DNA of 42,794 nucleotides. It comes from a virus. The position numbers were made by a program, and so were the translations under genes. Positions 7,300-25,446 of this stretch are shown one piece after another; position 1 is the stretch's first letter, and every line of letters starts with the position of its first letter. The notes below the pieces were generated by a model that saw nothing but the letters and a program-made list of their open reading frames with translations, had not been told where the DNA came from and did not search any database. The stretch lies in IMG/VR virus record IMGVR_UViG_3300037493_002938, positions 1 through 42,794 of that record. One strand, 5' to 3'.

Positions 7300-7937
7300 A
7301 TAAACGAGCTTTAATAGTAGTTGCTCACGCAGACGATGCGGAATTGTCTATGGGAGGTACATTAAATGAGTTGATTAAAAAAGACTATCAGATAAAAATT
7401 GTTCATACAACATTGTCTGATTATACCGATTACAATAACAAGACATTACGCACGCGAGCGCAGGCGATAGACGAGAGTTCAACCGCTTTAAATAGTTTTG
7501 GTATAACCGATAGTCAGTTTCTTAATTTTAGAACTAAACGTCTACAATACAATAATGAAACCGTAGAAGCAATTAATAAGATTATAGATACCTTTGAACC
7601 AACAATTATATTCACTCATCACGTTGAAGACCGTCACCAAGACCACTGTAATACAGCTAAGTCTGTTATTGGCGCGGCTAGGTATCACGATAATGTATTG
7701 ATGTTTGAACCTGTGTATCCGTCCAACACACATTTAGGTTTTCAACCTCAAATCTATATAGATATGTCAACCTCAATGCAAAATAAACTCTATGCACTGT
7801 CGTTGCATAAAACTCAATTTCAAAAATATGACCACTGGAATGAACTGGTTATCTCGTTAGCTAGAACTCGTGGTATTGAGATAGGTGTAAAGTATGCCGA
7901 GGCTTTTATGCCATTAAAAATGAGGTTATCACTATGA
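7296..7937 (+). CDS. PIG-L/LmbE family N-acetyl-sugar deacetylase
   Basis: The protein is 213 residues. The zinc motif AHADDAE lies at 10-16 and is followed by MGGTL; the second motif HHVEDRHQDH spans 108-117. These are the hallmark residues of PIG-L deacetylases, which remove acetyl groups from GlcNAc-type sugars on glycolipids, glycans or small thiols. It starts within the stop of the LicD-GT gene and ends within the start of the WbqC-like gene (both 4-base overlaps). The likely substrate is a sugar in the glycan made by this cassette. Confidence 0.88.
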   Translation: MNKRALIVVAHADDAELSMGGTLNELIKKDYQIKIVHTTLSDYTDYNNKTLRTRAQAIDESSTALNSFGITDSQFLNFRTKRLQYNNETVEAINKIIDTFEPTIIFTHHVEDRHQDHCNTAKSVIGAARYHDNVLMFEPVYPSNTHLGFQPQIYIDMSTSMQNKLYALSLHKTQFQKYDHWNELVISLARTRGIEIGVKYAEAFMPLKMRLSL

Positions 7938-9136
7938 AAGTAACTATTCATCAACCAGAACACGCTTGTTGGTTAGGTCTTATCGACAAAATATCTAAAG
8001 CTGATGTGTTCGTTATTATGGACGAGGTGCAGTTTGAAAAGAACTATTTTCAGAATCGCAACAAAATAAGAACTAAGATTGATTGGACGTGGTTAACTGT
8101 ACCTGTAGAAAAACATAACCATAAACCTATTAATCAAGTAAAAATAGCAAATGAGACCAATTGGAGAAGTAAATATCTCGGCTTACTAAAAGAGAATTAT
8201 GGTAAGTCTATTAATTTTAAAAAATACTACGCCACAATAGAATCGATTATCAGTAAAGACTGGGTATATCTTTCTGATTTAAACATTGAACTCTTAAAGT
8301 TCTTTCTTGCCGAATTTAATGTAACCACCAAGGTTATACTGATGTCAGAGTTAAATTTACCTGCAATGGCTGACGGTACAGAGAAGTGTTTACAGATATG
8401 TAAAGCGGTTAGTGCTACTACCTACTTGTCAGGTACGTCTGGCAGAGACTATCTGGATGTAACTAAGTTTACAGAAAACAATATTAAAGTTGAATTTCAC
8501 GACTTCTTTCATTACCCTTATGACTTAGACCGCGTTGGTTTATCAGTTTACGATTGTTTGTTTACTGTTAAAGATATAAACTACACATTGCACGATTCAT
8601 GTAAAGGTATTAAGAGTTTGGTTAAGATTTTGAGTTCTATTTCACTGTCTAAGCATTTGTCTATTCTTGAGGTATTCGGTGGTGACGGATTTGGTCACTT
8701 AAAAGGTTATGCCAATGACTACTCAGACGTTTCTATTTGGGATATAAACTTAATAAACTGTGAAATGTTAAAAGCTCATTACTCAAAAGCTTCTATCAAC
8801 TGTGTGAACTCTCTTGAATATTCTGACTGGTTAGTGAAGAACACCAATATACGATATGATATTGTTATTGTTGATACTCCGGCTCAACTGTCAAATGATT
8901 TAATTCTTGCCAAGGCCGCAAATCTAATACACGGCGAAGGTTATCTTATAGTCAGATATATCAAACAACCATATAAAGAACACGAGTCGGTTGTTAGAGA
9001 CCTACCACTTTCTGAAATGAGTAGACAGATAGGCGACCAATATGATATACTAGAATCGTGGTTAGAGCCACGAGAGTATTATTTCTTAAATGATTGGTTA
9101 TATAATGCAGTCTTTCATATTAAAAGAAAGAGTTGA
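7934..9136 (+). CDS. WbqC-like protein fused to a SAM-methyltransferase-like domain
   Basis: Residues 1-215 follow the WbqC family: HQPEHACWLGLIDKISKAD at 6-24, QFEKNYFQNRNKI at 33-45, WLTVPV at 53-58, YLSGTSGRDYLD near 164-175 and HYPYDL near 193. WbqC proteins occur in bacterial polysaccharide loci and are proposed to help transfer aminoacyl or similar groups to sugars. Residues 240-400 carry a Rossmann start EVFGGDGFG at 246-254 and WDI at 269-271, like a class I methyltransferase, although the glycine motif is not canonical and activity is unproven. The length of 400 is well above a lone WbqC domain, so this is a fusion. Confidence 0.78.
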   Translation: MKVTIHQPEHACWLGLIDKISKADVFVIMDEVQFEKNYFQNRNKIRTKIDWTWLTVPVEKHNHKPINQVKIANETNWRSKYLGLLKENYGKSINFKKYYATIESIISKDWVYLSDLNIELLKFFLAEFNVTTKVILMSELNLPAMADGTEKCLQICKAVSATTYLSGTSGRDYLDVTKFTENNIKVEFHDFFHYPYDLDRVGLSVYDCLFTVKDINYTLHDSCKGIKSLVKILSSISLSKHLSILEVFGGDGFGHLKGYANDYSDVSIWDINLINCEMLKAHYSKASINCVNSLEYSDWLVKNTNIRYDIVIVDTPAQLSNDLILAKAANLIHGEGYLIVRYIKQPYKEHESVVRDLPLSEMSRQIGDQYDILESWLEPREYYFLNDWLYNAVFHIKRKS

Positions 9137-11221: not shown

Positions 11222-12149
11222 GGTGTTAGTAACTGGCGGTTGCGGCTTTATTGGTTCTAAAATCGTTGACTTACTCGTTAAAGAAGGTCATTCGGTAGTA
11301 GTGTTAGATAATATGACTACTGGCCATTTAGAAAATATATCAAAAGAAACTTTACAATCTGGTAACGTTAATATTATTAATGGTGATATTCGCAACTACG
11401 CCGACCTAGTAAGCGCCACAAATAAGGTTGATGTTATTTGTCATCAAGCCGCATTAACCTCTGTACCTAATTCATTTAAAGATAAAGAAGAATATCTGTC
11501 TGTGAATATCGAAGGTACTAATAAACTACTTGAAATCGCTAATAAGAGAGGTATTGGTTCTGTCGTCTTGGCCTCATCAGCTGCAGTATATGGTGATAGT
11601 ATATTTGTGAAACAGTCAGAATCACGCGAGGCTTATGGTTTAAGTTCACCATATGCATGGTCTAAACACATAAACGAACAGCAGGCTCTGTATTATAATA
11701 CATTTACACATCTTCGTGTGATGGCCTTACGTTACTTCAATGTGTATGGCGAAGGTCAGTCTATTAATGGTGAAGGTGCGGTCATACCTACGTTTGCCTC
11801 TAAAATGCTCAAAAACCAGCCTATTTTCATTTATGGTGATGGGAAGCAGTATAGAGACTTTATTCATGTTAAAGACGTTGCTAGAGCCAATTACGCTGCA
11901 ATGCAGAGCATTGAAAAAGGTGTGTTCAATGTAGGTACGAGTAATTGTATTAGTATCAATGAATTGTCTCAAGAATTAACTACTCGCACTGGCTATACTG
12001 AAAAGATTCAATACAAGCCAGCTCGTAAAGGCGATATTTGGTTATCATGTGCAGATATGACAGAAACGATTAAGCGTTTAGGTTTCAAGAGTTCAATAGC
12101 GTTGTATTCGCCAGAAGGTCTAGACGTAATCGTAGAAAGTTTAAAATGA
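11208..12149 (+). CDS. NAD-dependent sugar-nucleotide epimerase (GalE/WbpP-like)
   Basis: This 313-residue extended SDR has the NAD-binding GGCGFIG at 10-16, SSAAVYGD at 123-130 and the catalytic pair Tyr149/Lys153 in YAWSK. The sequence GYTEKIQYKPARKGDI near the C-terminus is typical of UDP-glucose or UDP-GlcNAc 4-epimerases and related dehydratases. It would supply a nucleotide-sugar donor to the glycosyltransferases upstream. The exact substrate cannot be told from the sequence. Confidence 0.9.
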   Translation: MNKSKVLVTGGCGFIGSKIVDLLVKEGHSVVVLDNMTTGHLENISKETLQSGNVNIINGDIRNYADLVSATNKVDVICHQAALTSVPNSFKDKEEYLSVNIEGTNKLLEIANKRGIGSVVLASSAAVYGDSIFVKQSESREAYGLSSPYAWSKHINEQQALYYNTFTHLRVMALRYFNVYGEGQSINGEGAVIPTFASKMLKNQPIFIYGDGKQYRDFIHVKDVARANYAAMQSIEKGVFNVGTSNCISINELSQELTTRTGYTEKIQYKPARKGDIWLSCADMTETIKRLGFKSSIALYSPEGLDVIVESLK

Positions 12150-12586
12150 AGACTTATTCTAAAACTTTTGAAAAGACTTTAAAAACAACTTTACGGTTAT
12201 TTAATATTGACGTAAATATAAAAGCTGTAAAGCGTTTAAAGTATCCGGCCGCTGTTATTAGAGTAAAACCCTACACAGTGTGGTATGTTAAACGTGTGTT
12301 TGTGAGTAAAGACTTTGCGGTAGCCTGCGCTATTCATGAGGCTGGTCACATTATTAATATGTATTTTGGTTTAGAAGAAGTTTCTCTTAAAACATTTGAC
12401 CAGACTGTAATGTCAGAATATAAGGCTGAGTTGTTCTTAGTTCGTATGTTAAAATACTTTGATAAACCTTTTTACAAAAGATACCTAGAGATTATTTCTG
12501 ACTGTGTTAAAAGTAAGAAATGGTCTAAACTCTACCCAGTTCACTTCAGAGCAATGAAATCAATTCTTCGTTTGGAATCTAAATAA
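12146..12586 (+). CDS. small HExxH metallopeptidase-like protein
   Basis: The protein is 146 residues and coupled to the epimerase by a 4-base overlap. HEAGH at 64-68 is the zinc-protease motif, with acidic residues in SEYKAEL (90-96) about 25 positions later that could give the third ligand. This arrangement resembles gluzincin-type or ImmA/IrrE-like peptidases, but the protein is short and very basic elsewhere. It is the last gene of the plus-strand operon. Target unknown; a regulator-cleaving or host-takeover protease is possible. Confidence 0.6.
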   Translation: MKTYSKTFEKTLKTTLRLFNIDVNIKAVKRLKYPAAVIRVKPYTVWYVKRVFVSKDFAVACAIHEAGHIINMYFGLEEVSLKTFDQTVMSEYKAELFLVRMLKYFDKPFYKRYLEIISDCVKSKKWSKLYPVHFRAMKSILRLESK

Positions 12587-13125: not shown

Positions 13126-15174
13126 TTATTTACACACCGCACTTATAGTAGCTATATTAATAGTATAATTATCTGTAGTTTCAATTTTCCATAAACATGT
13201 TTTGTCTGAAGAGGTTTCAAATTCTACTGTGCCGCCCATTAACGTATAATTAAGTCTTGATTCTCCTAAATTAGTTAATATTACTTGGCTCCAGGTACTT
13301 CCGTTATCTTTTGACATAGAGACAATAATATCTGAATTTAATACTGTACTACTATCTATGTTACCTTCAATAATAATATAACCTTTGGTAGGAGAACTCA
13401 CACACTCCCACGACTTAGATATTAACGTCATTGGTAATATCTGTGTAATTTGACCATAATTTCCATACCCTCGTATCTCGTTAACTACTATGATGCTATC
13501 TGCCCGCCAGTTATCGATAAAATATATTCTATAATAAAGATAGTGTGTCGAATTTTCGAAAGTGTATGTATATGTTTCGGTAGTTGTTCCTGATGGTAGA
13601 ATATCGGTATAAATATCAGTCCATGTAGAATCGTTATTAGAACCTTGTATTGTAAAATTCTTTCCGCACCGTCCATCTCCATCACCATAAGATGTAATTA
13701 CTATCTTTATAATTATTTCTTCAGTTAATAGCTGAAATTTTATCCAATGAGGAAAATCATCGAAACTTGAAGCCCAATAAGTTCCTAAATTACCGTCTAT
13801 CACATTACTAGCTAAATAACCTGTTCCAATATAACTAAGTAAACTATCAGCCGTTACCGTACTAGAGACAAGCTTCTCTGTTTCTTCCTCTGTTTCTTCC
13901 GTTGAACTAAAATTTGTATATTCTGTTTCATAGAAAGTTTCGTTTATACAGTTAGTTAGTTCTATACCATCTTCAGTGCCAAGCCCATCAACTACCCCAT
14001 TAACAATTTTATAATAGGGAGAGGCTTGTAACTTTAAATTAGTGGCAAATCCAAATAAATAATTATAAATATCATTTGCGTCTGTTCCTCCCGTAGGGGT
14101 TTGAAAAGAACTTTTATCTGTACTGGCATTGTAGGTAAGTACGTCACCGTCTTGTGGATGTCCGCTTGTTACTTCTACATCAGATAAATCAAATAATGAC
14201 ATTGGTTTATCTTCAAATTCTAAATCATTAGTATAGTAATCTTCTTGAATCTTTTGATACCCGATTATCTCTATCATATCAGACGTGATTTCTGTCGTGA
14301 GAGGCGTGATATTTTTAATTAAAGCTACAGGTATTTCATATTTAGAGGCTGAATAACTCTTCTCGTGTACTTCATATCTAAATAACAAATCATCGGCAGA
14401 TAGGTTATCAATGGTTGCACGTGCAAAGACTATGTAATCAACAGAACCAGTGAGAGGCAACGGTATTACAACAGCTTCTTCTGGTAATGGCGTTTTACTA
14501 CCAAAATGTAATGAGTTTAAATTAGCGTTACAATATACCATTAGGTCACTTACGCCGCTCTCAGTATATGGAGTGACTGTCATTTTTTGCGTAAAGACTG
14601 TCGGTATTACTTCCATTTGATTAACAAACACCTGACGCAAAACGTGATTAATGTTACCGCTGGCAACTCCAACCTGACGTAAGTCTCTAAGTAATGAACC
14701 GTCGTAGTCTGTTGCGTCGTGTTCTACCCATACTCTACAGATAGGTATACGGTCGGTATTGTCACCGATAGACGGTGAATATTTATTAACAACATATGTC
14801 GAATCGCTTTCAAGATATACATAAACCCATCTGTCTTCTGTATACGTAGGCAGTGTTATTTCTTGTGCAGGCATTGAGACTATGGTATCTTGGTCAAAAG
14901 AGGCCACGCCCGAACCAATAAATAACTGTAGGCTATTCGCGGTTGTCTTTGTTGGCACAAGTCCGTCCATAATACGCTTATCAAGCAACATGGCTATAAG
15001 TGGCATTAGAAGAGTTTCAACTTTGGTCAAAATCCCGTCGTCTTGTTGTAGATTTATTGACTGCCACTGACTATTCTGAGGTAATTGAGTCTCAGAACCT
15101 GTGCGTCTTTCTACACGAGCCAGTTCTTTTCTTATCTGAGCTCGAACTATTGAGGATAACGGTCTACTTCTCAT
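13126..15174 (-). CDS. tail/baseplate fibre protein with F5/8 type C (discoidin) domain
   Basis: The protein is 682 residues. The N-terminal third (LQLFIGSGVASF, then RWVYVYLESDSTYVV) looks like a virion-attachment region. A linker SLFDLSDVEV...GDVLTYNAST at about 327-353 is the common phage-fibre joint. Residues 436-571 form a discoidin/F5-8C domain, with ASNVIDGNLGTYWASS at 455-470, FTIQGSNND and LYYRIYF, known for binding sugars or lipids. The C-terminal 100 residues are a beta-rich cap. AGGAG precedes the ATG, which overlaps the upstream stop. It is probably a receptor-binding or adhesion protein at the tail tip. Confidence 0.8.
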   Translation of the reverse strand: MRSRPLSSIVRAQIRKELARVERRTGSETQLPQNSQWQSINLQQDDGILTKVETLLMPLIAMLLDKRIMDGLVPTKTTANSLQLFIGSGVASFDQDTIVSMPAQEITLPTYTEDRWVYVYLESDSTYVVNKYSPSIGDNTDRIPICRVWVEHDATDYDGSLLRDLRQVGVASGNINHVLRQVFVNQMEVIPTVFTQKMTVTPYTESGVSDLMVYCNANLNSLHFGSKTPLPEEAVVIPLPLTGSVDYIVFARATIDNLSADDLLFRYEVHEKSYSASKYEIPVALIKNITPLTTEITSDMIEIIGYQKIQEDYYTNDLEFEDKPMSLFDLSDVEVTSGHPQDGDVLTYNASTDKSSFQTPTGGTDANDIYNYLFGFATNLKLQASPYYKIVNGVVDGLGTEDGIELTNCINETFYETEYTNFSSTEETEEETEKLVSSTVTADSLLSYIGTGYLASNVIDGNLGTYWASSFDDFPHWIKFQLLTEEIIIKIVITSYGDGDGRCGKNFTIQGSNNDSTWTDIYTDILPSGTTTETYTYTFENSTHYLYYRIYFIDNWRADSIIVVNEIRGYGNYGQITQILPMTLISKSWECVSSPTKGYIIIEGNIDSSTVLNSDIIVSMSKDNGSTWSQVILTNLGESRLNYTLMGGTVEFETSSDKTCLWKIETTDNYTINIATISAVCK

Positions 15175-17972
15175 GTTAACTCCTCTGTTGCTAATATCGG
15201 CAAAGCTTGAAAATCATATCTTTTCCAGTTTATATATAATGTCTTATTTAAGTTCATACTTGTAACATTTGAATCTGCAATGCCTTCTACTTTAGCCAAA
15301 CGTAAATTAAAGGTCATAGAATCAAAATCTACAGTGGCTATTCCGCTTACTGTACTTGGATGATACATAGTGGCTAAATAAGCTCCTTCGACGTATACTA
15401 CCAACTGACCATCAATTGCGCCTAACGGTCTTATGACCAATTCTGACGGTAATGTGAGCGTTCCCATTAAAATGTTGCTTCCCGACTTACTATCGACTCC
15501 TTCATAAAAATCCCATTCGAGCGCACTGGCGTATGGTAAATCTAGGTCTGTACTAGGCGAGTGTGCTTTCGCGGTGTAGATATTTAACTTTTCATTATCT
15601 TGCGCATAGAACGAGGCTGTAACCGCAGAAGGCGTTAACTCACCAAGCCATGCTTGTCTAACTGGGTTGTCGAGGTCATAAACATAACTACCCCAATATA
15701 GTCTACCACTCTGAGCACTGATAAACGGTGTGCCTCCGTCAGCGTATGACCACGCTAACTCTTCTATGGTGTGACTTTCCGTTATCACACTATCTCGTAT
15801 CTTTGTAAGATATAAATTGCGATTATAATTTCCAGTTGTTCCTGTTATCTCGGCATTAGCTTTTAAGTAATGATATCCACTAACATCTACAGCCAGACCT
15901 TGCGCAAAAAACTCTAAAGGTTCTGTACGAGTGAGTGTACCTATGGTTGTCCATGTATCTAAGTTCATATCATATTTTTCAACATTACCATCGAAAACTC
16001 CGTATATAAATTGATAACCAGAGATAAGGTCTATTTGTGTTGCGCCAGCTTCTACCATCGGCAATGTACCTAATTTTTTTGTAACAAAGCGCCAGTCAGA
16101 TAACCAAATGTCATTATCTGTATCAATAAATATTAAATGGTCATTGCCTGCGTAAAATGATACAGTATTACCTTTATTTAACAGTGGCTTTCTACCAACA
16201 AATATATATTCAGAGGCTGTGCGTGTCTCATAGTCTAAACCGCTGTAAATCTCTATTGTGGCTAGTTTCTTCGCAAAAAACACATCTGCGTCTGTAAACT
16301 CTGGGTAAGAACCAGACTGAAATGAAATATCATACATCTGACTAAATGTACCTTGATATGATTTCATGTAGTGTTCATTCGGTTCAAATGTTGATGGCAC
16401 AGTAGGGAGAATTAATGTTTCGTCATTCTTCTCAACTTTTAAAAATAAATCTGAAATATAAGCCTCGTCATTTGCGTTTGAATCGTGCAAGTCTCGTACA
16501 TTGCCGCTTACAAATAACGTGGCGTTGTAGTTTGTATCTGATTTAAATGTGACCATATCTATAGGTAACGCAAAATCAAATCTACCAAATGACCGTTCGT
16601 TTTTATATTGGTCTAACGCGCCAACGATTTCAGGGAAGCTTAATCCGCCAACCTCTAAGCTGTGACTCATTTTACCGTGTTGCTCTTTAATCTCGTCAAT
16701 AAAGAAGATTCTATAAACACTAGGTACGATGTGACTAATGTAAATAGAGTTTCCAATGTGAACCGCGGGATTATATACAATATCGTATGAGCCGTGAATA
16801 ATCGGCTTATATACTTCTGATAGCAGATATTGCGCTCTGATGCACGTTTTGAGATAAGTATTTAAACCGTCGTCTTTTTGTTTATAATATTTAAATCCAA
16901 TTCTATCATAAATCGGTTTATATGTAAAATCTGCGTATACGGTAGTTTCTTTTGGATGTTCTTCATCATATGTCCACGTACCTGCAATCAAATCACCTAA
17001 TGCGGGCGTGAACTTCAGCGTAATTAACCCAGTTAAATAGTCATAAGTATAATCAGTTGGTGATATTAATTCGTTAGTGAGTGAATTACGAAATAACTTA
17101 ATAGAAAGTGGATACACCTTAACATAACCATAACCTTGACCATGGTAATATTTCTGCATCCAATAATTTGGTATTTGTATAGTAGTTGCTATACCGTCGC
17201 CTATCATAATAACATTACCAAGTGTGGCGGTAAATTTAATCAGGTCTTTTTCCCAACACTGAATTTCAGCGATAGCAAACGCCCAATTATAGTATGCGTG
17301 AAACTCAACCTTCTGTTTACCTTTATTATGTACTTTAATGTCATTAGCGATAAACGTTGGATATTCTTCAACGCTCAATGTGTAAATAGGTATCTTTAAG
17401 ATATAAGGTTCAACAGAGTAGATTTTACGCTTATTACCTTCTTTATCGGTAAGATAGTCGCCTTCTGAAAATTCTTCTGCCGTGAAAAATTCACCTTCTC
17501 TAAATAAGAAATGGTCAGTTGTGGTAATCAACTCACCACCATCAAAGATTATCTTAATCAATTCATTGTCATAGTCTATATGTTGAAATGTATTTAAAAC
17601 GGTTCTAGTATAAATTTCTTCTGAATCTGAAAAACAATAAACCTTATCGCCTATTCTAACACTCTCGATAGGCACTTTACCTTTTGGAGTGTCGATAAGA
17701 GTTCCTTGAATAAAACAACCTTTTTTCTTAAAAGCTATAGGCTTCCAGGTCTTCCAATATTCAATGTAATCTTTATGAAAGTGTCTATCAGATGACAACA
17801 CATCTAATATTAAATGTGCTTTGGCTTGAAACTGAATAGGTAGAAATTCATAGATATACGCATGTAACATTTCATGAACAAAAGTACACCACTTCTGAAA
17901 TCCAGTCAGCCTATCATCAAGTACAATCATTTTGGTTGTACTGTCGTAATAACTTAAATAAAAATCATTCAT
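15171..17972 (-). CDS. tail protein: SprT-like metalloprotease + Hint domain + beta-rich body
   Basis: The protein is 933 residues. The N-terminus has VHEMLH (32-37), a zinc-protease HExxH with a further HFH at 64-66 as possible third ligand, recalling SprT-like proteases. Residues 86-216 are a Hint (intein-type) domain: Cys86, TLIDTPKGKVPIESVRIGD, TTTDHF at 150-155 (block B) and VHN at 214-216. The residue after HN is Lys, not Cys/Ser/Thr, so it resembles a bacterial intein-like cleaving domain. The remaining 700 residues are beta-rich, with a DYTYDYLTGLITL module near 310, and probably belong to the tail tip or baseplate. Start overlaps the small upstream gene by 4 bases. Confidence 0.78.
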   Translation of the reverse strand: MNDFYLSYYDSTTKMIVLDDRLTGFQKWCTFVHEMLHAYIYEFLPIQFQAKAHLILDVLSSDRHFHKDYIEYWKTWKPIAFKKKGCFIQGTLIDTPKGKVPIESVRIGDKVYCFSDSEEIYTRTVLNTFQHIDYDNELIKIIFDGGELITTTDHFLFREGEFFTAEEFSEGDYLTDKEGNKRKIYSVEPYILKIPIYTLSVEEYPTFIANDIKVHNKGKQKVEFHAYYNWAFAIAEIQCWEKDLIKFTATLGNVIMIGDGIATTIQIPNYWMQKYYHGQGYGYVKVYPLSIKLFRNSLTNELISPTDYTYDYLTGLITLKFTPALGDLIAGTWTYDEEHPKETTVYADFTYKPIYDRIGFKYYKQKDDGLNTYLKTCIRAQYLLSEVYKPIIHGSYDIVYNPAVHIGNSIYISHIVPSVYRIFFIDEIKEQHGKMSHSLEVGGLSFPEIVGALDQYKNERSFGRFDFALPIDMVTFKSDTNYNATLFVSGNVRDLHDSNANDEAYISDLFLKVEKNDETLILPTVPSTFEPNEHYMKSYQGTFSQMYDISFQSGSYPEFTDADVFFAKKLATIEIYSGLDYETRTASEYIFVGRKPLLNKGNTVSFYAGNDHLIFIDTDNDIWLSDWRFVTKKLGTLPMVEAGATQIDLISGYQFIYGVFDGNVEKYDMNLDTWTTIGTLTRTEPLEFFAQGLAVDVSGYHYLKANAEITGTTGNYNRNLYLTKIRDSVITESHTIEELAWSYADGGTPFISAQSGRLYWGSYVYDLDNPVRQAWLGELTPSAVTASFYAQDNEKLNIYTAKAHSPSTDLDLPYASALEWDFYEGVDSKSGSNILMGTLTLPSELVIRPLGAIDGQLVVYVEGAYLATMYHPSTVSGIATVDFDSMTFNLRLAKVEGIADSNVTSMNLNKTLYINWKRYDFQALPILATEELT
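17325..17717 (-). other. Hint / intein-like domain within the tail protein
   Basis: The segment encodes residues 86-216 of the 933-residue protein. It begins with the nucleophile Cys (codon 17715-17717) after a KKKG sequence. It has a typical first strand (KVPIESVRIGDKVYCF), the TxxH motif in ITTTDHFLF, the penultimate block YTLSVEEYPTFIAN and the terminal HN. No homing-endonuclease insert is present at 131 residues, matching mini-inteins and BIL domains. Lys at +1 argues against normal protein splicing and for cleavage at one or both ends. Confidence 0.78.
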
Positions 17973-18130
17973 TTATTACCTTCTAACTTTTTAATATCTT
18001 CAAGGTGCGTATTTAATACATGAGAATAGATACAAGGTGAACACTTTGACTTGTGGTCACAGAATTGGCATTTGTATATTTTACCATCAAACTTTATATA
18101 TTTTCTAACATTCATTGGTAAATATGGCAT
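17969..18130 (-). CDS. small zinc-finger-like protein, 53 residues
   Basis: An ATG at 18130 opens a frame to a TGA at 17969-17971 that overlaps the next start as ATGA. The protein has CQFCDHKSKCSPC (residues 21-33) followed by HVLNTH (37-42), consistent with one C2H2-type or treble-clef zinc site. The ribosome site (GAGAAAG) is weak. It sits between the hub protein and the metalloprotease-Hint protein; tail assembly or regulation are both possible. Supported by tight coupling and the metal-ligand pattern. Confidence 0.55.
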   Translation of the reverse strand: MPYLPMNVRKYIKFDGKIYKCQFCDHKSKCSPCIYSHVLNTHLEDIKKLEGNK

Positions 18131-22625: not shown

Positions 22626-23405
22626 TTATAAAGCCTCCAAATAAACCGTCACTCGATATTGTTGGCTAGCGCCTTGCTGAAAATCAATAAAGTCTTTACT
22701 GATATTCGTAACTCTACATGCATATAAGTCATCTTCATGAGTTCTCACTAGCACGTCTTTTCTTTGCAAAGATTTTAAATACATGAATTGTTCTCGCGTT
22801 ATTCCAGTAAAAGTTATATTAGCGATATTAGACTCGTGTTCATAAGCTATTGGGTGAATCAAAAACACCTCATCGTTAACTGTATCAACCGTCTCTTCTT
22901 GAATACCGTGTGATGTATTTGCCCCTGTCGGGTTTCTTTCCCAATAATGCGTAGAAGTTTCTATCTCATTTATTTGACCAAAAGTATCAGAATCTATAAT
23001 AGCGACATTGTCGATTATAATTTCACACGCGCTAGAGTCTATGCGCACCAAGGTCTCTAATGTTATACTAGTCACCTCTGCTTCAAAAATATGCCACTCG
23101 GTATCCACAGGCGCAATGTTGTGCGCATAATTATTCGTAATCACTGTAAAATAAAATGCTCCCACGCTTAAAAATCTATAATTAACAACCACTCGATATT
23201 TTGTGCTTTTTCCAACAAACGAATTTTCAATAATAGTGTTAGTTAATTTTATAGCGTGTGTGTGCTCTCTTTCTGATATAAAAAGGCATTTAGTAGAGTC
23301 ACCTATCCAGTTGTCGCCGAGTCCGTCCTGGTCGGTGTCTCTTTGAAAACTGAAATTTTCATTCTCTGGCTGAGCAAATAACCATTTTACGTAATTAGTA
23401 GACAT
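22626..23405 (-). CDS. Dit-like distal tail protein, paralogue of the upstream gene's C-half
   Basis: I choose the ATG at 23405 (259 residues) because GGAG lies just ahead and the overlap with the upstream gene is only 11 bases; a longer frame from a TTG at 23447 is possible. The protein aligns with the C-terminal half of the 683-residue neighbour: YVKWLF-Q-ENENF-F versus YVRWILNEPLNINFAF, CEIIIDNVAII versus CEVVLDNFAIV, and KDVLVRTHEDDLYACRVT versus KKILLRTHNMVALAVRVT. Position right after the tape measure block and before the hub suggests a distal tail ring protein. Confidence 0.7.
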   Translation of the reverse strand: MSTNYVKWLFAQPENENFSFQRDTDQDGLGDNWIGDSTKCLFISEREHTHAIKLTNTIIENSFVGKSTKYRVVVNYRFLSVGAFYFTVITNNYAHNIAPVDTEWHIFEAEVTSITLETLVRIDSSACEIIIDNVAIIDSDTFGQINEIETSTHYWERNPTGANTSHGIQEETVDTVNDEVFLIHPIAYEHESNIANITFTGITREQFMYLKSLQRKDVLVRTHEDDLYACRVTNISKDFIDFQQGASQQYRVTVYLEAL

Positions 23406-25446
23406 AACACTCCAGTTTAGTGTCATAGAGCTGAGTAGTTTGTTCAAACCCTACTGGAACATCTAATGTTACTCCGGTAACTCTGACGGCTAAAGCAACC
23501 ATGTTGTGCGTTCTTAATAATATCTTTTTACCGACTAACGATTTAATATAGTTTCTATCATTGTATTTTAATAAACTCCATGGCAAAGATACTTTAGTTC
23601 CCTGATAATAATTAATACGTGGTGTTTTTGTTTTGCCCATTAATGTTTGTTCTTTACCTTCTTTATTTTCATACGGCACTGTTAAAGACTCTGGGTTCCG
23701 TACTGGGTAAATAGGTACGATAGCAAAATTATCTAAAACTACTTCACAATCATCTGAATAAACTTTTATAATCAATCCATCCGTAGTTCCGATATTAAAT
23801 GAGGTATTCCAGTAATTCCATCCTCTACTTACTAAACGTGAATCAAACTCGTCAAACTTTACCGTTTCTAAGTTATTCCATATCTCTATTTTAAAATATT
23901 TTTCTTCGTTATCATCATTAATGATTTTAAAGTTAGTCCACAGTCTAAGAGCTTGGTCATGATAATCTGTAGTATCGACTTCGCATGTAAATACACCAGT
24001 TACTTGAGCGCTTTGTGTACTGAATAATAATTTCAAACAATGCGAATGAAAATCTTCGCTATATCTCTCGTCAGTCACACTACCCATGAGAGTATAATTA
24101 TCTGAACCATCTTCAAAGGCAAAATTTATATTTAATGGTTCATTTAATATCCAACGAACATAAGGACAATACGTTAAGCTAGAGATTAATTCAGAAAAAT
24201 ATACACTATCTTTGGGATGAATTAATTGATAATGAGTCTCTGAATCTTCTACATCAAATGTTTCTGACTTTCTAGCATCAATACGACCGTGAAAAGTTTC
24301 ATCAAAATAAAGACTGTAATCTACAAAAATAGGCACAACAAGACCTTCTTCTAGGTCTCCTATTTCTGCCAATACTATCGATTTATTTATATTTTCAGTT
24401 TCTACCAAATTACCAGTATCTGCAACTGCCTTTATCTCTTTATTTGTATAGATACTCATCGTACCGCTATCGTTTTCACAAATCACCATCTGCCCAGTGT
24501 TAAAATTTGGCCCGGCCGCCATTTGAGGCACAGATGTTGTATGTGCACTTATATCAGACAGTGTCCAACTTGAGGTGTACAGGGCTGATTTACATTTAGT
24601 GGCGCTGTTATAAAAGACTGCAATTGTATTATTGACCACGGCTGCACATGGGATTCCAGTTGTTGCATTTGTGTCCACATAAGATTGTGTCCACGAAACA
24701 TCTCCTATGGCCTTCTTGTATTCTGCTAATTTATAGACACTTGAGTTCAAACATCTACAGTAAATATAAAAAGTGTCAGATTTAACACAGATAGTGCCAA
24801 ATCCGTAGTTGCCAGAATCAATCTCTGTAATGGCTCCCCAAACTCCACCAGAGCGCTGTTTATAATAAATTTTATTAGATTTTGATTCGAGAATACATAT
24901 ATTATCTGAACTATCAACAGATACTTGCGCGTATCCGTTAGCTGCGCCGTCGTTTATAATTTCAGTATCAGACCAGGAACCGTCATATTCTGCCATCCAC
25001 AAATCAATATCGCTTGATGTGTTTACTTTACCATAAAAGCAAAATATCTTTGCTCCGTTAACCGTAACTGTTGGATACTGTTTATTGGCCGAGCCAGACG
25101 ATGTCGAAATCTTTAATGGAGAACTCCATCCACTCTCGTTTCGAGTTACATAATATATATTAGCGTATGTGCCAGCTTTTTTTGTGTAAACGCAGTGAAT
25201 ATATCCGTTCTCGTCACAACAACACCACAAACCATGTGTATGGTCGAGATTGCTTGAGTCAATATCTATGTCTGCAGTGTTTGACCAGTTTATACCGTAA
25301 TCCTCTGAATATCTAACAACTAGCTTATTAACTCCGCCTTCGGCAGATACCCAGGCAAATGCCCACAGTCGATTTGAGTCGTCTAAAACTAAAGAGCGAC
25401 ACAGTGCTGCCCCGTCGGGAGTACCAGTCGGAAGTGTATTAAACAT
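23395..25446 (-). CDS. sialidase-like beta-propeller fused to a Dit-like domain
   Basis: The protein is 683 residues. Residues 1 to about 340 are a beta-propeller of the BNR/sialidase type: an Asp-box SEDYGINW lies at 47-54, followed by repeated blade patterns (W-x-SPLKIS, GVWGAITEID, DVSWTQSYVD). Sialidase activity is not assured because I do not see the full catalytic Arg triad. Residues 390-683 are related to the next gene and look like a distal-tail (Dit) ring domain carrying an N-terminal sugar-binding extension. Likely role: tail-tip ring with a glycan-binding or glycan-cleaving arm. Confidence 0.72.
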   Translation of the reverse strand: MFNTLPTGTPDGAALCRSLVLDDSNRLWAFAWVSAEGGVNKLVVRYSEDYGINWSNTADIDIDSSNLDHTHGLWCCCDENGYIHCVYTKKAGTYANIYYVTRNESGWSSPLKISTSSGSANKQYPTVTVNGAKIFCFYGKVNTSSDIDLWMAEYDGSWSDTEIINDGAANGYAQVSVDSSDNICILESKSNKIYYKQRSGGVWGAITEIDSGNYGFGTICVKSDTFYIYCRCLNSSVYKLAEYKKAIGDVSWTQSYVDTNATTGIPCAAVVNNTIAVFYNSATKCKSALYTSSWTLSDISAHTTSVPQMAAGPNFNTGQMVICENDSGTMSIYTNKEIKAVADTGNLVETENINKSIVLAEIGDLEEGLVVPIFVDYSLYFDETFHGRIDARKSETFDVEDSETHYQLIHPKDSVYFSELISSLTYCPYVRWILNEPLNINFAFEDGSDNYTLMGSVTDERYSEDFHSHCLKLLFSTQSAQVTGVFTCEVDTTDYHDQALRLWTNFKIINDDNEEKYFKIEIWNNLETVKFDEFDSRLVSRGWNYWNTSFNIGTTDGLIIKVYSDDCEVVLDNFAIVPIYPVRNPESLTVPYENKEGKEQTLMGKTKTPRINYYQGTKVSLPWSLLKYNDRNYIKSLVGKKILLRTHNMVALAVRVTGVTLDVPVGFEQTTQLYDTKLECYVY

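Follow-up and report, generated by a model that had tools for sequence, protein, structure and literature searches.

A probably self-cleaving BIL-like Hint domain behind an HExxH leader in a putative phage tail protein, and its relatives in the N-terminal arms of gpJ-type tail-tip proteins

A Hint domain of the A-type BIL kind, probably self-cleaving, is encoded among the tail genes of a phage in the IMG/VR virus record IMGVR_UViG_3300037493_002938, and similar domains recur in the N-terminal arms of gpJ-type tail-tip proteins of uncultivated phages. The assignment of the domain itself is well founded. In the phage studied here, whose whole 42,794-nt stretch of DNA is called the window, the Hint is preceded by a leader with an HExxH motif, which makes this phage a variant within the recurrent tail-tip set; that set is arguably a more solid discovery than the protease leader. 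Known carriers of Hint/BIL domains include inteins, Hedgehog proteins and polymorphic toxins. If the domains described here are active, tail tips would be self-processed after translation, and the leader processed in the window phage may be a protease; if this is true, BIL domains in tail-tip arms would add to phage tail maturation a processing step not yet described.

Results

The Hint lies in a 933-aa ORF (17972 to 15171), composed of the HExxH leader, the Hint and a 717-residue body, on the minus strand, a point on which the first-pass annotation was silent; the plus-strand translation of the same stretch is riddled with stops. M1 is preceded by a ribosome-binding site (AGAAGG, 17984-17979), and a 4-base ATGA overlap joins the start of the gene to the stop of a preceding 53-aa ORF (17969..18130, minus strand) that carries a CxxC and additional Cys/His residues and looks zinc-binding (zinc-finger-like). 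Two small ORFs lie directly upstream. From the HExxH to the Hint no further start carries a ribosome-binding site, which puts the HExxH region on one chain with the Hint. One neighbour of the 933-aa ORF is a 1419-aa ORF, which follows the tape measure gene downstream, and the other is an F5/8C-domain ORF; from this position we infer a tail role for the protein. The body (residues 217-933; 15174..17324, minus strand) is tail-associated by position and otherwise uncharacterised: Pfam, PHROG, NCBIfam and relative searches found no family or homologue, and its single-sequence model reached a pLDDT of 30. Identification of the body as gpJ was also considered and dropped, since hmmsearch and hhalign gave no match between the two. 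The term tail-tip used for this protein in the first-pass annotation therefore reduces to its gene position, and the parallel with tail-tip proteins drawn below rests on the Hint together with that position. In addition, no JAB (gpK-type) motif occurs among the window's open frames of 50 codons or more, no syntenic phage was found via relatives of the capsid-like, hub-like and 168-aa neighbours, and there was no defence-family match.

Elsewhere in the window, two neighbouring tail-module ORFs on the minus strand (22626-23447, with a TTG start as called, and 23395-25446) share 53 bases in different frames and look alike at their C-terminal ends; they possibly encode paralogous distal-tail-like proteins. 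Furthermore, a single plus-strand ORF of this phage contig (4433-5737) encodes an IspD-type cytidylyltransferase followed by a short-chain dehydrogenase, amid glycosyltransferase-like genes and a WbqC-like gene (7934-9136).

The Hint occupies residues 86-216 (17325..17717, minus strand), with Cys86, T151-T-D-H154 as the TxxH motif, H215-N216, Gly85 at -1 and Lys217 at +1, and with a Lys/Gly-rich linker enclosing it (KKKG before, KGK after). The first-pass annotation had read exactly this 131-residue domain, with the same intact motifs and the same +1 residue, from the DNA letters, and the profile searches bear it out with a Hint match well above what chance would give: PT-HINT (PF07591) scored 34.4 bits against a cut-off of 27.7, and Hint_2 29.6 bits against a cut-off of 28.4. 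The closest solved structure by sequence was 2lwy, a BIL of Clostridium thermocellum (phmmer, E=1e-10), which was also the best fold match of the AlphaFold model in Foldseek (E=1.3e-11, TMt 0.87; pLDDT about 97 across the Hint); the second-best fold match was 6y75, Tetrahymena BIL2. The domain thus combines the Hint fold, an N-terminal Cys, a TxxH and a C-terminal His-Asn with the lack of Cys, Ser or Thr at +1, as A-type BILs do, and Lys217 sets it apart from class 1 inteins, which have one of those three residues there. No toxin domain joined to the Hint was recognised in the 717-residue body by Pfam, PHROG or NCBIfam; the body could conceivably be a toxin domain of an unfamiliar kind. In an alignment of 22 Hints, the other 21 being 26-40% identical to that of the window, C86, H154, H215 and N216 are invariant and T151 is nearly so. 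The conservation of catalytic residues in such divergent domains argues for retained activity. The window Hint has a Pro (YPTF) at the block-F position where many relatives have a His, which could slow Asn cyclisation.

The leader (residues 1-85, ending KKKG; 17718..17972, minus strand) is a probable minimal zincin, judging from its sequence and its predicted structure. Its HEMLH motif occupies residues 33-37 of the 933-aa translation (17862..17876, minus strand), as first annotated. The label SprT-like that had been attached to it gives way to M78/IrrE, which the profiles favour at threshold; the SprT profile, PF10263, was not listed up to E=10 for residues 1-85 in a search whose filters drop most matches above about E 0.1. 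For Peptidase_M78, whose cut-off is 22.0 bits, the isolated leader (residues 1-85) scored 22.2 bits and the full-length protein 17.1. In addition, phrog_87 ('metallo-protease') matched the leader at E=0.003, and residues 8-38 aligned with phage metalloproteases in tblastn (E=1e-4). LIS04_32, considered as a relative of the leader, was ruled out because it had no metallopeptidase match. AlphaFold predicted the order beta-beta-helix(HExxH)-helix-helix, with a pLDDT of about 70 over most of residues 1-85, and candidate ligands beyond the HExxH, picked from the sequence, are H53, D57, H64, H66 and E71. Among the window's open frames of 50 or more codons there is only one other HExxH (HEAGH, in a 146-aa protein at 12146-12586, plus strand, which has no significant family match).

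That the leader is no protease, but carries a chance motif or is the decayed remains of a small gene joined to the start of a Hint-bearing tail protein, seems to us somewhat unlikely; this explanation concerns the leader only and is compatible with any outcome at the Hint. The Peptidase_M78 match is borderline in score and spans residues 6-44 only, a PDB search with nothing but the leader also turned up an unrelated lectin, a spurious match (E=0.003), the confidence of the model is moderate, and the two small ORFs directly upstream would fit such a fusion. However, the chance expectation of an HExxH in 85 residues of this composition is only 0.003, the HExxH helix is picked out by several profiles and by tblastn alike, and the predicted beta-beta-helix order suits a minimal zincin. 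A protease cargo is plausible but borderline.

Relatives of the Hint were collected in two ways. A pattern scan for Cys-Phe..Gly-Thr followed by Val-His-Asn-Lys-Gly, which demands Lys at +1, gave 52 viral stretches, most of them encoding a short leader that ends in a Gly/Lys run, a Hint of ~130 aa, a second Gly/Lys run and a long tail-tip-like protein. A profile scan showed that at least 134 IMG/VR stretches encode Hint relatives; 80 were retained, and among those read the Hint mostly lies in the Gly/Lys-rich N-terminal arm of a gpJ-type tail-tip protein. One post-Hint sequence matches 1404 deposited phage records, many annotated as tail tip or host specificity protein J, which identifies the post-Hint part of the relatives as gpJ, and a JAB-motif ORF, as expected for gpK, lies upstream in 14 of the 16 Hint-gpJ loci examined. 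The Hint-less gpJ of seven deposited phages start with the same sort of short, mostly Lys/Gly-rich arm (MYRQGMQPLKGSKGG-DAGKQRQPVEAPDSL), so the Hint sits inside a pre-existing arm or linker. None of the relatives read has an HExxH before the Hint; the sole ORF of the profile-scan list with an HExxH string anywhere (L115) has it within the Hint.

Other arrangements were seen in the course of these scans. In three IMG/VR stretches (L124, L125 and L129) a tail-assembly-I-like N-terminal region, labelled gpI from general resemblance, is followed by a poly-Gly run, a similar Hint, a Gly/Lys run and a hydrophobic stretch; if this N-terminal region were ubiquitin-like, it would parallel the Tetrahymena Ubl-BIL locus. 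Tandem Hint domains occur within one ORF in L034, L121 and L127, the last two having two consecutive Hints near the N-terminus, followed in L127 by a gpJ-like protein. In L145 and L113 a motif of the pre-Hint leader (VIAGAGGGG, VKGSKG) recurs after the Hint, as if the insertion had duplicated the arm.

The window Hint is 30-39% identical to gpJ Hints. In the tree its neighbours are the gpJ Hints L073, L087 and L088 (support 96/90). Mostly gpJ Hints make up the 35-row set in which they all fall (95/84), separate from toxin Hints and 2lwy. An AU test did not reject its grouping with toxin Hints and 2lwy (p=0.164), so that the sequences give support, not proof, for a relationship with the gpJ-arm Hints.

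Among the parsed sequences the +1 residue is Lys in 95 and Gly in 10, stray counts of T and Y having arisen where an internal His-Asn was parsed in error. Lys had been demanded at this position by the first scan; in a second sample of 45 sequences, picked by the N-terminal side only and therefore unselected on the C-terminal side, Lys was found in 34 and Gly in 11 (10 and 8 when non-redundant), plus one Gln by eye. The idea of a universally conserved Lys at +1 was dropped, as Gly is nearly as common among the non-redundant cases of this unselected sample. Cys, Ser or Thr never occurred at +1 in the tail-type Hints tallied, and the -1 residue is Gly in 34 of 38 Hints. The genuine phage inteins found, in a DNA polymerase and a helicase, have Ser or Cys at +1.

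Discussion

We propose, at about an even chance, that the window protein is a single chain processed by its own Hint, mostly into three pieces, of which the leader is a small M78-like zincin. In this scheme the 933-aa protein would be made as one chain, Cys86 would attack the Gly85-Cys86 bond to form a thioester, and Asn216 would cyclise with the aid of His215 and free Lys217. Since Lys217 lacks a nucleophilic hydroxyl or thiol, three pieces would usually result, an 85-aa leader, a 131-aa Hint and a body starting KGKQ; in a minority of molecules the freed amine may join the flanks again. The usual leader of 13-40 residues would here have been replaced or extended by the zincin. BILs without a +1 nucleophile have been reported to give mainly cleavage products (PMC7664689), and type A BILs can still splice without one, via attack of the freed amine, with cleavage dominating (PMC4031507). 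The earlier claim that Lys at +1 points to cleavage rather than splicing is upheld as far as the signature is that of A-type BILs, which are mainly cleaved, but is too strict in that splicing is possible without the nucleophile (PMC4031507). The chain most likely ends up cut into leader, Hint and body, although substantial splicing is conceivable.

A Hint that mainly splices, excising itself and rejoining KKKG to KGK, would leave a mature HExxH-body fusion and release nothing. The ability of A-type BILs to splice without a +1 nucleophile (PMC4031507) is in agreement with this, as is the presence of the unstructured Gly/Lys linker also in Hint-less gpJ, since splicing would restore a normal-looking arm. 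We nevertheless regard it as unlikely, because cleavage products are reported as dominant for BILs (PMC7664689, PMC4031507) and because the tallied tail-type Hints lack C, S or T at +1, whereas genuine phage inteins have Ser or Cys. Still less probable is a Hint that has no activity, or only a structural role, and that travels with the tail genes as an insert in a flexible linker; the linker position would suit such an insert, and its spread within tail modules would need no mechanism, but catalytic residues that stay invariant or nearly so in 22 divergent Hints from different host proteins argue against it. A BIL2-like transfer, in which a lysine side chain (of Lys217, Lys219 or another protein) attacks the Gly85 thioester and the leader becomes isopeptide-linked, is very improbable: Tetrahymena BIL2 forms Lys isopeptide bonds (PMC8616854) and is the second-best fold match (6y75), and the leaders end in Gly with lysines coming after the Hint, but Gly is at +1 in 8 of 18 non-redundant cases and the Lys/Gly richness may be plain linker composition.

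Returning to the processed chain, the tail BIL could act as a releasing or attaching device by which the HExxH leader is cut free, or moved via its Gly thioester to a lysine, during assembly or infection, an extension of the proposal that we consider quite doubtful. The substrate of such a protease might be another tail protein, the host envelope or a host protein. The idea of the first-pass annotation that the leader is released at assembly or ejection, to act in the host, is speculative.

No direct relatives of the whole 933-aa protein were found in viral contigs, genome contigs or deposited phages. Pattern scans of 2.9 million viral contigs, using exact motifs, a spacing of ~45-55 residues from the HExxH to the Hint start (other spacings could escape) and either codon for the first His, gave no second HExxH-Hint case; two matches proved to be unrelated, one being a helicase intein (L068) and the other having its HExxH in an own short frame (L153). 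Furthermore, four Hint-containing protein queries against 50,697 deposited phage records matched helicases, portal proteins, a DNA polymerase, toxin-like proteins and others of the kind, with no Hint in a tail-tip gene among the matches read or named, and no account of Hint domains in gpJ was found in the open-access literature. The statement of the first-pass annotation that no tail protein with such an order has been described can be kept for the order of HExxH and Hint, but not for the Hint in a tail-tip arm, which recurs in many uncultivated phages.

Several known systems share features with the window protein. The Peptidase_M78 (IrrE/ImmA) zincins, including phage phrog_87, have the HExxH and the strands and helix before it, but the match of the window leader ends at residue 44, its score is only at threshold, and the third ligand is represented by candidates only. 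The PT-HINT (PF07591) polymorphic toxins share a score above the family cut-off and the same catalytic residues; in contrast, the window protein has no recognised toxin domain after the Hint, belongs to a tail module and has an HExxH domain in front. In the Tetrahymena BUBL locus, BIL2, the second-best fold match, likewise lies between two protein modules, although the setting is a eukaryotic polyubiquitin and the identity to the window Hint is 22%. The Hint-bearing versions of lambda-type gpJ in IMG/VR have the same Hint subfamily (about 38% identical) and a Gly/Lys-rich N-terminal arm, whereas the window has a body that is not detectably gpJ, an HExxH leader of 85 aa instead of 13-40 aa and no JAB (gpK-type) motif. 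Lastly, the A-type BIL 2lwy shares with the window Hint the fold (TMt 0.87), the N-terminal Cys motif, the TxxH, the C-terminal His-Asn and the lack of a +1 nucleophile; the window Hint differs in lying in a phage ORF among tail genes, within a Lys/Gly linker, and in grouping in trees with the Hints of gpJ.
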